A program made the translations under genes and the position numbers. Shown here piece by piece: positions 22,007-57,703 of a DNA stretch of 64,000 nt. Source of the stretch: Rouxiella sp. WC2420 (lineage in GTDB: Bacteria; Pseudomonadota; Gammaproteobacteria; Enterobacterales; Enterobacteriaceae); contig NZ_CP165628.1 of assembly GCF_041200025.1 (NCBI RefSeq), positions 4,216,001 through 4,280,000 of the forward strand. The letters are read 5' to 3'. Below the pieces are notes generated by a model, which was not told where the DNA came from, did not search any database, and was given only the letters and a program-made list of their open reading frames with translations. The stretch's first letter is position 1. Each line of letters opens with the position of its first letter.

Positions 22007-22123
22007 TATACCCCTGTAGGTTTAGTGCTGTAACAAAGCAGCGACCCAGTTAATCCCTCAAGTATGTGACTAGGGTTAGCGAGGGATGTGAATGCAGTTA
22101 CAGTACGAAAGATGCGGGGTATA
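22007..22123 (+). repeat. Degenerate ERIC element upstream of panE
   Basis: The 117-bp stretch begins TATACCCC and ends GGGGTATA, a perfect 8-bp terminal inverted repeat matching ERIC ends. Inside, GTGCTGTAAC (22025-22034) pairs with GTTACAGTAC (22096-22105). The core GTTAATCCCTCAAG...GTGACTAGGGTTAGCGAGGG is a decayed ERIC centre missing about ten bases. It ends just before the panE ribosome site (AGGAG). Confidence 0.75.
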
Positions 22124-22134
22124 TAGGAGCAAAA

Positions 22135-49028: not shown

Positions 49029-49077
49029 TAAAAACAAAAACCCGAGCGACTTTTAGAAATAAGTCACTCAGGTTTGG
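49029..49077 (-). terminator. Terminator of the MetE-like gene
   Basis: AAACCCGAGCGACTT ... AAGTCACTCAGGTTT pair over about 13 bp with two mismatches. On the minus strand the hairpin is followed by TTTTTGTTTTT. The ERIC array lies between it and the stop codon, so the array would be transcribed as a 3' untranslated region. Confidence 0.75.
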
Positions 49078-49099: not shown

Positions 49100-49227
49100 A
49101 AAGCGCAGAGATTTCGAATTAGAGCAAGGCAGCAAGCGAGTTCATCCCCAGGAGCTTACACAGGTAAGTGACTGGGGTGAACGAGGGAGGCGAACGCCGC
49201 TATAGCATCAAAGATCAAACTGTTGCC
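49100..49227. repeat. ERIC element, tandem unit 1
   Basis: First of three 128-bp units. The core from about 49141 to 49192 contains ATCCCCAGGAGCTTACA and GTAAGTGACTGGGGTGAACG, almost identical to the sequences from which standard ERIC primers were designed. This unit differs from the others at several bases (GAATTAGAGC, GCAAGCGAG, ATCAAACTGTTG), so it is the most diverged. Confidence 0.93.
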
Positions 49228-49355
49228 AAAGCGCAGAGATTTCGAGTTAGAGCAAGGCAGCAACCGAGTTCATCCCCAGGAGCTTACACAGGTAAGTGAC
49301 TGGGGTGAACGAGGGAGGCGAACGCCGCTATAGCTCGAAAAATCAAGCTTTTACC
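49228..49355. repeat. ERIC element, tandem unit 2
   Basis: Second 128-bp unit. GATTTCGAGTTAGAGC near its left end pairs with GCTATAGCTCGAAAAATC near the right, and GTTCATCCCCAG pairs with CTGGGGTGAAC around a short loop, so the RNA folds as one long hairpin. Its right junction AAGCTTTTACCAAA copies the 3' end of the neighbouring gene. Confidence 0.93.
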
Positions 49356-49483
49356 AAAGCGAAGAGATTTCGAGTTAGAGCAAGGCAGCAACCGAGTTCA
49401 TCCCCAGGAGCTTACACAGGTAAGTGACTGGGGTGAGCGAGGGAGGCGAACGTCGCTGTAGCCCGAAAGATCAAGCTTTTACC
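49356..49483. repeat. ERIC element, tandem unit 3
   Basis: Third 128-bp unit, reaching into the stop codon of the MetE-like gene (49479-49481). It has GTGAGCGAGG and CGTCGCTGTAGC variants relative to unit 2. The period is exactly 128 between all three GCG-AGAG marks (49103, 49231, 49359). Confidence 0.92.
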
Positions 49484-53077: not shown

Positions 53078-53213
53078 ACAATTTCGAGTGTAATTAAGTG
53101 TAGCCAAGCCGTCATATTAAGTTCAGGCACATGACATGGTTATGATTTTTCGGGGACAGAGAAGGTCGTGGGCGTTTATACTTGCCGCCTGTTACAGCCA
53201 CCGCGAGACCCCC

Positions 53214-54452
53214 ATGCGACTGATTCACACCTCTGACTGGCATCTCGGCCAGTACTTTTTTACCAAAAGCCGTGCGCCTGAACATCAGGCTTTTCTTGAC
53301 TGGCTAATCGGACAGGTTGAACAGCATCAGGTCGATGCGGTGATTGTCGCGGGGGATATTTTCGATACCGGCTCGCCGCCAAGCTATGCGCGCGAACTGT
53401 ATAACCGCTTTGTGGTGAACTTACAGCAGACAGGCTGCCAGCTGATTGTGCTGGCGGGAAACCATGACTCAGTCGCTACGCTGAACGAATCTCGCGAGCT
53501 GCTTTCCTGCCTCAATACTCAGGTGATCGCGACTGTCGGTGAGGATATTTCTCGCCAGGTGATTACCCTGAAAAACCGCGAGGGTCAGCCGGGGGCAATA
53601 CTTTGTGCAATCCCGTTTTTACGCCCGCGCGATCTGCTGGCTAGTCAGGCAGGGCAATCCGGTAGCGAAAAACAGCTTGCATTACAAGAAGCTATCGCCG
53701 GACATTATTCAGCGCTTTATCAGGCAGCCTGCGATCATCGCCAGCATCTCGGCGTGGCGGTGCCGATTATCGCTACCGGCCATCTGACCACTGTCGGTGT
53801 AACCACTTCCGACTCGGTGCGAGACATTTATATCGGTACCTTAGACGCCTTCCCCGCTCAGGCCTTCCCGCCGGTAGATTACGTGGCGTTGGGGCACATT
53901 CACAAAGCGCAGAAAATCGCCAGGACCGAGCATATTCGCTACAGCGGCTCGCCAATCCCCCTGAGTTTTGACGAAGCCAGCAATGAAAAAAGCGTTTATC
54001 TGCTGGATTACACCGCCGATCAACTTAACAGTATTGAAACATTGGCGATCCCGCGCTCTCAGCCGATGGAAATCATTAAGGGCACACTGGCCGAGATTGA
54101 AAAACAGCTGCAGTCCTATGAAAAAAATCAGGAAACGCTGCCGGTTTGGCTCGATATTGAAGTCGCGACGCAGGATTATCTCAGCGATATCCAACGGCGT
54201 ATCCAGCAGCTTACCGATCCGTTGCCGGTGGAGGTCGTGCTACTTCGGCGCAGTAAAGAGCAGCGTCTGAGCGGTCTGTTACAGCAAGAGAAAGAAACGT
54301 TGAAAGAGCTTAGCGTCAGCGAAGTGTTTGAACGCCGACTGGCGCAGGAAAATACCCCTGAAGAGGGCCGCCAGCAGCGGATACGCACCCTGTTCTCGCA
54401 GGTGCTGGAACAGGTCGAAAACGGCCATTCTGCCGGAGAAACCAGCCAGTGA
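53214..54452 (+). CDS. sbcD: Exonuclease subunit SbcD
   Basis: SbcD is the Mre11-type nuclease of the SbcCD complex, which cuts hairpins and DNA ends. The ATG at 53214 gives [12 protein letters not shown] and 412 residues (E. coli 400); a start farther upstream would add an unlikely leader. The five phosphoesterase motifs are present: SDWHLG, GDIFDTG, AGNHDS, ATGHLT and ALGHIHKAQ. Its TGA overlaps the sbcC GTG start. Confidence 0.97.
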
Positions 54453-57400
54453 AGATCCTGTCATTACGATTAAAAAATATCAATTCACTGGAAGGTGAAT
54501 GGAAAATTGATTTCACCGCCGAACCCTTCGCCAGTAATGGACTTTTTGCTATTACTGGCGCAACCGGGGCCGGTAAAACCACCCTACTCGACGCAATTTG
54601 CCTGGCGCTGTATCACCAAACGCCGCGCCTGGATGTGTCTCCGAGCCAGAACGAATTGATGACCCGCCATACCGCAGAATCGCTGGCCGAGGTCGAGTTT
54701 GAGGTTAAGGGCGTAGGCTATCGCGCCTTCTGGAGCCAGCGCCGGGCGGGTAACTCGCCAACCGGTAATTTGCAGGCACCAAAGGTCGAGCTGGCACAAC
54801 TGGCCGACGGCAAAATTCTCGCCGACAAAGTACGCGATAAGCTTCCGGCGATTGCCGAGCTGACGGGGCTGGATTTTGGCCGTTTTACCAAATCGATGAT
54901 GCTCTCTCAGGGGCAGTTTGCCGCCTTCCTTAACGCCAGGGCCAACGAACGAGCCGAACTGCTGGAAGAGCTGACCGGCACCGAGATTTATGGACGACTG
55001 TCTGCACAGGTATTCGATCGTCATAAACAGGCGAAGATCGACCTCGATCTGCTGCACCAGCGCGCCGCCGGTATTGAATTACTCAGCGAGGAACAACGCC
55101 AACTGCTCGAACAAGAATTAACTCAGCTGGGATTGCAGGAAACCACGCTCAGCCAGCAAACAGTGGAACAACAGCAAGGTCTAAACTGGCTGCAACAGTG
55201 GAAAAACATTCAGCAAAAACAGCAACAATACCAACAACAGCTTGTCGATGCCGAAAGTCAGGCGCAACAGGCCGAGCCGCAATTAAAGCAGCTGGCGCGC
55301 AGCGAACCGGCGGAAAAGCTTCGCCCGTTGTTAAAAGATCGCCAGCGCTATCAACAGCAGCAGGCTGATTTACAGCGGCAGCTAACGCAGCTCGGTGAGC
55401 AGCAGCAACAGTTGCAACATTCCAAAACCCCTTTAAATGAGGCTCTGGAAAAAGCGCTGCATCATCAGCAGCAACAGGCCGCCGAACAACTGCGGCTAGA
55501 GAAGCTAATCGAGGAGCAAGTCCAGCCGCTGGACAGCAAAATCCATCATTTGCAGGAAAAGCTGAGCGACGATCGGCAAAGGCATCTTAAACAGCAAAAC
55601 CAGCAGCGGGAATTGGCTGAAGAGCTACAAAAATTGGCTAGCGAGCAAACTGCCTCGGCGCAAAGAAATCAGCAATTTCAGGCTAAAGAGGCCGAACTTG
55701 TTGCACAGTTGAATAGCCAAACGCAGCAGCAAAGCGCGCTGGAAGCACAGTCGCCGCAGACCGCTTTACGCAGTCAACATTCGGAACTGGTCGGACTGCG
55801 CCCCGTTCGCCAGCAACTCTCCACCCTTCAGCCGCTGTTTCAGCAAGTATCCCAGCGGATTAGCCAGCAGCATCTGGAATTTGACGCACGCGAGGGAGAG
55901 CTGCTCGAGGCTGAAAAAAATCTTAACCAGACGCGTGAAAAGTACAAGCAGCAAAAACAGCATCTGAACGATGTCGAAAAACTGCTGGCGCAGGAGCAGC
56001 TGATTGTCAGTCTTGAAGCAGAACGCTCTCGCCTGCAAACCGGTCAGCCTTGCCCGCTGTGCGGTTCGACGACACATCCGGCTATCGAATCCTATCAGGC
56101 CGTCAGTCCGTCCGAGACCGCGCTGCGGGTGCAGCACATGCGTGAAGAAACTGAAAAGTTGCATACCAATGGCACACAGTTACGGACTCGTACCGAAGGA
56201 TTAAAAGAACAGCAACAACGGCTGCAAACTGCGCTGCAACAAGATCAAAAACAGCAAGCGGGATATCTCGAACAGTGGCAACAGGCCTGTGGACAGCTTT
56301 CATTAGGTTTCACCTTGCAAGACAGCGAGGCGCTGCAAAACTGGCTGCAAGAATCTGAACAGCAAGAGCAGCGCTGCCAGCAGCTTATCCGCCAGCACGA
56401 TGAGGCCGCTCAGGCAGTCCAGAAAGCCAAAGAAACGCTTTATGCGGCGCAGGCTGAACAGAATCACTTGCAACAGCAGGTAGTAATTCAAAACGAGCGC
56501 AGTCTCACGCTGCATAAACAGCACAGTGAGTGTCGGCAACTGGTGGAACAGCAGGCAAAACTGTTAGCCGAAAGTGAGCAATTACTTACTCAGCAGCGCA
56601 GCTCTCGCATTGAACTGTTTGGTGATCGACAGGTGGCACAGGTTCGTGAACAGCTGCGCCAACAGCTGCAAATGGCTGAGCAAACACGTCAACAAGCCTA
56701 TGAAAAATTGCAGACGGTGCAGCAGCAGCTCGACCAGCTCGGCGGTCAACTGGTCACCCTGCATCACAGTCACAAGCTGGGCGAAACTGATTTACATCAG
56801 GCTGAGCTGGCCTGGTTACAGGCGCTGCAAAACAGTGATTTCAACGATGAGCAGGCAGTGATTGATGCATTAATCGAAGAGACCCTACGCCAGCAGCTGC
56901 AACAACTTAAAGAAAGCGTGCAGCGACAGCTGACCCAGAGCAAAATTCTGCTGCAACAGGCCAGCGAGCAGTTGGAACAACATCTACAATCACGCCCGGC
57001 CGGGCTCAACGAGCATACAAGTCATGTCGAAACGCTCGCCGAACAGATCGCCGCACTCAACGTCCAGCTGAGGACGCTACAACAGCGCCAGGGCGAGCTG
57101 CGTAGCCAGCTAACCAGTGATACTCAGCGTCAAAGCGGTCAACAGGCGCTGTGGCAGCTGATTGCCGAATCACAGGAAACCTATGACGACTGGAGCTACC
57201 TCAATCAGATTGTCGGCTCTAGCGATGGCGCAAAATTCCGCAAGTTTGCTCAGGGGCTGACGCTGGAACATCTGGTTTATCTGGCTAACAGGCAAATGGA
57301 GAAACTCCACGGCCGCTATTTCCTGCAAAGAAAAACCAGCGAGGCGCTGGAGCTGGAGGTGGTAGACACTTGGCAGGCAGATGCCGTGCGCGACACTCGC

Positions 57401-57703
57401 ACACTTTCAGGCGGCGAAAGTTTCCTGGTCAGTCTGGCGCTGGCTTTGGCTTTGTCAGATCTGGTCAGCGATAAAACGCGCATCGACTCACTGTTCCTCG
57501 ATGAAGGTTTTGGCACCCTCGATGCTGACACGCTGGACACCGCGCTAGATGCACTGGACAGCCTGAATGCCAGCGGCAAGACCATTGGCGTAATCAGCCA
57601 CGTTGAGGCAATGAAAGACCGCATACCGGTGCAGATCAAAGTGAAAAAAGTTAACGGGCTGGGCATTAGCAGACTGGACAGTATCTTCAGGGTCAACGGC
57701 TGA
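54449..57703 (+). CDS. sbcC: Exonuclease subunit SbcC (SMC-like ATPase)
   Basis: SbcC is the Rad50-type ATPase partner of SbcD. The GTG start at 54449 overlaps the sbcD stop (GTGA). The 1084 residues (E. coli 1048) show Walker [10 protein letters not shown] at about 37-45, long coiled coils of unusually Gln-rich composition, the central zinc hook CPLC (about 533) and the C-terminal signature [19 protein letters not shown] with Walker [12 protein letters not shown]. SbcCD processes palindromes, the kind of DNA that the nearby ERIC repeats form. Confidence 0.97.

Follow-up and report, generated by a model that had tools for sequence, protein, structure and literature searches.

An ERIC is normally met as one copy at a time, so the locus behind a metE-like gene of Rouxiella sp. 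WC2420, where three copies stand head to tail, raises the question of how and why such a row came about. ERICs (IRU; RU-1, MITEEc1) are 127-bp enterobacterial MITEs that serve as a typing tool and are known as dispersed elements, and this usual single, dispersed state is not what the locus displays. It was analysed within a 64,000-nt stretch of the chromosome (the window), and the copies were then followed through the chromosome, a draft of the same species and other genomes of the family.

Repeat search identified three 128-nt copies with a spacing of 128 + 128 (Table 1). TRF (minimum score 50) gave 49100-49483 as the sole tandem array of the 64-kb window (period 128, 3.0 copies, 94% matches, 0% indels, score 670), and pairwise alignment of the units shows agreement at 122, 119 and 116 of 128 positions (91–95%). 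All three approaches agree with an earlier note on this DNA, which had described three ERICs in a 128-bp tandem sharing one core; the core pattern is found with 0 mismatches in 3/3 units. Over its full length each unit has 71–74% identity to the 127-nt E. coli ERIC consensus (the sequence in Table 1a of PMC2759123), compared with an average of 46% and a maximum of 54% for shuffled units. The length (about 127 bp) and conserved central core are those of an ERIC, as are the terminal inverted repeats with one long imperfect hairpin, and on core, length, hairpin and copy number (see below) membership of the ERIC family is sound. An Rfam search returned no family at threshold, the V_AS5 (RF02818) match scoring 28.4 bits where the gathering score is 96.

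The metE-like protein matches NCBIfam NF005085 (662 bits; cut-off 313). The array had been placed between the stop of this gene and its terminator; the position is right, except that the first ERIC begins at the stop codon itself and overlaps the TAA. The proximal TA of the array is part of this stop codon, and the distal end is without a visible TA or TA duplication. Terminator-like sites in the scanned region number four, with a shuffle mean of 2.9, and the terminator-like hairpin is supported by its 15-pair stem and, by eye, its presence in the same-species draft (G392), not by this count.

Table 1 Positions of the array and associated features (window coordinates unless a chromosome position is given).
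Feature	Position	Strand	Remarks
ERIC unit 1 in mRNA order, gene-proximal	49356..49483	-	overlaps stop codon
ERIC unit 2	49228..49355	-	gene-side junction TCGCTTTGGTAAAAGC, resembles gene end ATTTGGTAAAAGC
ERIC unit 3, distal	49100..49227	-	gene-side junction GCGCTTTGGCAACAGT
TAA stop of metE-like gene	49479..49481	-	inside unit 1, overlapped by ERIC terminus
metE-like gene, 381 aa	49479..50624	-	5-methyltetrahydropteroyltriglutamate--homocysteine S-methyltransferase, short form
Intrinsic-terminator-like hairpin	49038..49075	-	downstream of array; also in same-species draft G392
Second ERIC in window, single, diverged	22007..22127 (chromosome 4238007-4238127)	-	61.7 bits
IS3-family element between arrays 3313741 and 3315731	L090 1769-2880 (chromosome about 3314568-3315679)		

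The locus is not isolated. A covariance model (R1) built from 30 ERIC copies, with matches kept at E up to 0.01, finds at least 149 ERIC copies at at least 70 loci of the chromosome, a lower bound (150 candidates were scored), and the many dispersed copies that characterise ERIC are present. With an array defined as two or more same-strand copies whose starts lie <200 bp apart, 26 of the 70 listed loci are tandem arrays of 2–8 units and, unlike ERIC/IRU as known, the copies of WC2420 are largely tandemly amplified (105 of the 149 listed). Periods are mostly 116–138 bp; the longest regular arrays have 8 units, with periods of 125 and 130 bp, some arrays close with an extra, cut-off unit that the model does not count, and two of the 26 (3952143 and 3894972) are irregular. 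The IS3-family element of Table 1 lies between arrays 3313741 and 3315731 (6 and 2 units); with a common period of 130 bp and units that match closely, the two were probably a single array that the element divided. The earlier note was right about ERIC identity, tandem layout and location and missed that the array is one of about 25 in the genome; its view of a tandem triplet as unusual is true of most genomes searched, but not of this one.

Searched across 392 genomes of the family, a strict pattern for tandem ERICs was matched in 27, with 29 pairs in WC2420 and at most four in any other, although it misses longer units (e.g. in genomes G042 and G169) and draft assemblies may hide arrays, the comparison being firmest for near-complete genomes. 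In the two-contig congener G351, 40 ERIC matches include three pairs within 200 bp, partly between partial matches. Copy number alone does not explain the arrays, as genome G151 has 137 ERIC matches, none in tandem and no pair within 200 bp. Two loci with longer units belong to other genera: G042:C93:41124-41701 carries four ERIC cores with 186-bp spacing, and G169:C1:3796132-3796635 three cores with spacings of 323 and 161 bp.

Among named loci, the best matches of the metE-like protein, by protein identity, are in Serratia sp. M24T3 (100%), Rouxiella badensis (90%), R. silvae (89%) and R. aceris (86%). At three of 51 gene loci, those of R. badensis, R. aceris and M24T3, the gene match is followed after 47–49 bp by an ERIC core (up to 8 mismatches), so that the ERIC there starts at the stop codon; M24T3 has two cores before the contig ends, and one Rahnella locus among the 51 has a core 336 bp from the gene match. 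By eye, there is one unit in R. badensis, one cut short in R. aceris and none in R. silvae. In G392 a contig break falls inside the metE-like array, leaving two full units on each contig end; the four full units differ pairwise at 3–8 positions, and the far end also holds part of a fifth, distinct by eye. The count at this locus is then at least five units in G392 (the fifth partial) vs three in WC2420.

Comparison was extended to 20 stretches of G392 chosen for at least two ERIC matches, in which both flanks of 16 WC2420 loci were found. The length difference is a whole number of units (within 4 bp) at ten of these 16, one locus is equal and five differ by other lengths, with the proviso that arrays in a draft are possibly collapsed, which may explain some of these differences. 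Collapse cannot explain 652289, 4684656, 3768641 and 1096259, at which G392 has more sequence, the difference at 1096259 not being in whole units. Unit number, which the earlier note had suggested comparing between related strains, therefore varies within the species in the manner of a VNTR, subject to the draft state of G392.

Units within an array have a mean identity of 0.913 vs 0.571 between loci, and the nearest relative of 101 of the 105 array units is in their own array. Internal junctions, by eye, are mostly identical inside an array and different between arrays. The arrangement is that of a minisatellite or VNTR: head-to-tail units, a constant period and units closest to their neighbours. 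Because units resemble those of their own array (91%) and not those of other loci (57%), the arrays most likely grew by in-place duplication of one ERIC rather than by serial transposition.

The ends of the arrays were compared in 23 of the 26 (one half of the split array and the two irregular arrays left out). Likeness of the proximal terminus to the consensus is 0.65 in first units, 0.47 in later units and 0.69 in single ERICs, with the first unit higher than later ones in 15 arrays, lower in two and equal in six (Wilcoxon p = 0.0008), a pattern that suits a single insertion with later in-place duplication. Host-flank bases within the junctions, whose presence would establish duplication in place, stand out in few arrays: distal agreement of at least 6/8 bases was seen in five of the 23, four of which are explained by a cut-off unit or the IS split, leaving 1296743, and proximal agreement of 6/8 in one (5127706), the metE-like array having 5/8. 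Mean agreement is 3.5/8 distally (2.3 for unrelated arrays) and 2.5/8 proximally (2.1). Bases shared at the ends of 4083456, 4182928, 4457300 and 4684656 were considered as host flank and on checking are mostly ERIC terminus. The flank-base argument accordingly comes from 1296743 and 5127706 and, weakly, from the metE-like array, and with traceable flank bases in few arrays the case for local origin is carried mainly by unit similarity. In the metE-like array itself, TTTGG occurs as a direct repeat, once at the gene end (ATTTGGTAA) and once immediately past the last unit (CTTTTGGTG), and the junctions have the form CGCTTTGG+TAA.. or CGCTTTGG+CAA... The two internal junctions are unlike each other, and there is little terminus loss in later units (0.55 vs 0.60).

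Two other origins have to be set against this. Tandem arrays are a classic assembly problem and two G392 contigs do end within the metE-like array, but an artefact is barely conceivable given that the array is also present in the independent G392 draft, where the units at the two contig ends can be told apart, and that the three WC2420 units differ from one another. Separate ERICs could also have been inserted in turn, each using as its target the TA that closes an ERIC already in place. TA duplication is reported for ERIC in an excerpt of PMC2759123, and a related MITE is likened to IS630-type elements in an excerpt of PMC6267812; junctions at 698418, 3957271 and 1093341 look, by eye, like near-complete ERIC-to-ERIC joins, and clear host-flank bases are seen in few junctions. 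The gap between within-array and between-loci identity is strong counter-evidence, later units lack part of the terminus, and no two of the 137 matches in G151 lie within 200 bp, making such stepwise insertion improbable.

With in-place duplication as the preferred reading, the course of events may be pictured as follows. In the Rouxiella lineage, a single ERIC (a non-autonomous MITE bounded by terminal inverted repeats) would have inserted at the TAA stop of the metE-like gene. The ERIC-bearing piece would then have been copied on the spot; the likeliest route is slippage during replication, or template switching, at short direct repeats such as TTTGG, with the hairpin-forming palindrome presumably aiding the process. 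From the first pair of 128-bp copies onwards, unit number could rise and fall through more slippage or through unequal recombination, which would also keep the units alike, and the same process may have run independently at about 25 loci. The account as a whole, an ERIC minisatellite arising from one insertion at the stop and in-place duplication, with strain-variable unit number and independent recurrence at about 25 loci, is judged very probable. ERIC identity, a local, non-transpositional origin, strain-variable number and recurrence in the genome are well supported, and the molecular cause of the duplication (slippage, hairpin) is what we infer. SbcCD attacks DNA hairpins, and loss of this nuclease was considered as a cause of the arrays; there was no sign of it, as frames at 53136-57703 of the window that we take to be sbcD and sbcC are open over 438 and 1084 aa.

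ERIC loci are also largely uniform in their orientation to replication. The gene at chromosome base 1 is dnaA (by eye), which we take to place ori there, and an exact dif match at 2,571,489 places ter at 2.57 Mb; GC skew is mostly positive before 2.57 Mb and negative after. Relative to this map, CACCCCAG... reads the way the fork moves at 62 of the 70 listed loci, comprising 26/26 arrays and 36/44 singles (Fisher p = 0.022). The bias persists at loci with an antisense upstream ORF (24/27) and at those where both neighbours are antisense (15/17), so the direction of the genes seems not to account for it. At 10 of the 15 fork-aligned loci with both neighbours antisense, 20/20 neighbour proteins match Pfam families; three of the 15 are doubtful (3313741, beside an IS; 5127706, misread; 4949683, perhaps misread). 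Fifty of the 70 listed loci are in the ori-proximal half. Elsewhere fork-aligned ERICs number 30/40 in G351 and 89/137 in G151 and, among the matches listed, 15/37 in G087 and 20/32 in eight other genomes, counts that use rounded chromosome sizes and an ori assumed to be opposite dif. A general replication-orientation rule for ERICs was rejected on the weakness of the bias in other genomes.

On the mRNA strand, single units fold at -40.0, -45.8 and -35.5 kcal/mol (z -3.4, -4.2 and -2.1). In the fold of the whole stretch (457 nt) the minimum-energy structure pairs across units and the centroid retains three core hairpins. The three consecutive long hairpins of the earlier note thus hold only roughly, being borne out by single-unit folds and the centroid, but not by the minimum-energy fold. 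At 62/69 loci the CACCCC strand, the one transcribed at the metE-like locus, forms a less stable fold than the complementary strand; hairpin strength did not separate arrays from singles (p = 0.61 and 0.82), and compensatory changes are found in 15/23 stem pairs of the covariance model alignment (30 ERIC copies). Gene context was taken from the longest open frame, with sequence available for 69 of the 70 loci. A same-strand upstream ORF is present at 42 loci, and at 29 of them, including 15/18 arrays, the ERIC begins at the stop codon of that ORF. By the same rule the upstream ORF is antisense at 8/26 arrays, of which two are explained (the IS split and a misread gene) and six remain; the misread gene belongs to array 5127706, where at least this one longest-ORF call is wrong and the junction shows, by eye, a sense gene ending in TGA.

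We infer that the metE-like array is transcribed as the 3′ UTR of its gene, in which case its hairpins, as far as the terminator, may alter how long the mRNA lasts. ERICs at the 3′ ends of Yersinia genes were reportedly described by De Gregorio in 2005. Such 3′-end ERICs alter transcript levels through an unmasked RNase E site, not RNase III, according to an excerpt of a review (PMC10969869); the WC2420 array shares with them the position at a gene end and differs in having several units in a row. By this analogy, an effect of the 3′ UTR on mRNA is plausible at the metE-like locus. A 3′-UTR role cannot be the general reason for arrays, since six have no same-strand gene directly upstream by the longest-ORF rule.

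Two further ideas address what maintains or drives the arrays, and both are held tentatively. Selection might keep an array as a tunable 3′-UTR module in which unit number sets the half-life of the upstream gene's mRNA or how its end is processed. The frequency with which ERIC begins at an upstream stop codon, the compensatory stem changes and the transcript effects ascribed to Yersinia 3′-end ERICs (excerpt of PMC10969869) point this way; the six arrays still with an antisense upstream ORF, transcription of the weaker-folding CACCCC strand, unit numbers that differ within the species, and the fact that selection on a DNA palindrome could also yield compensatory changes point the other, and the proposal seems on balance unlikely. 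Equally doubtful is that amplification is strand-specific and coupled to the fork, so that only ERICs with the hairpin on one fork strand duplicate and the fork both sets orientation and drives growth. This would suit the alignment of loci, above all of arrays, and its persistence beside antisense neighbours. The bias is, however, weaker in G351, G151, G087 and the eight other genomes, arrays differ from singles only at p = 0.022, three of the 15 fork-aligned loci between two antisense neighbours are uncertain, and selection after insertion could give an equal bias. A bolder combination, in which the ERICs of this lineage act as fork-tied tandem-duplication engines that turn dispersed MITEs into dozens of strain-variable minisatellites, mostly at gene ends and tuning expression, is a shade less likely again.

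Known systems resemble the ERIC minisatellite in part. BrickBuilt of Porphyromonas gingivalis (PMC4596501, in excerpt) likewise joins a MITE to a minisatellite of variable unit number, but its repeat, of 23 nt, is internal to the MITE, and the unit repeated in WC2420 is the complete MITE. Photorhabdus has MITEPlu5 (PMC6267812, in excerpt), an ERIC-related MITE with a strong predicted hairpin that is mobile between strains; the copy variation reported there concerns tandem units of 7–16 bp, not the MITE. In the CC-licensed PMC literature, represented partly by excerpts and without De Gregorio 2005 and Wilson and Sharp 2006, no report of ERIC tandem arrays or of ERIC orientation to replication was found. 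What seems new here is the tandem, local and genome-wide amplification of a known element. A genome with about 25 arrays, set against one such as G151 with 137 matches and none in tandem, makes the old question of how palindromic MITEs shape genomes directly testable, including why one lineage duplicates its ERICs, why they keep to one fork orientation and whether expression responds to several hairpins lined up behind a stop codon. The arrays also offer VNTR markers and are a likely cause of contig breaks in short-read assemblies.

Tandem repeats of comparable period are sparse between the ERIC loci. TRF on 400 kb of ERIC-free chromosome stretches, a control picked between known ERIC loci that measures non-ERIC tandem repeats only, gave two places with a period of at least 100. 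A non-ERIC array at L194 2476-2757 (chromosome about 4752476) has a period of 111 bp and 2.5 copies, its unit holding, by eye, a terminator-like hairpin, and an array with a period of 141 bp lies between tRNA-Lys genes at L192 120-1021 (chromosome about 4000120).
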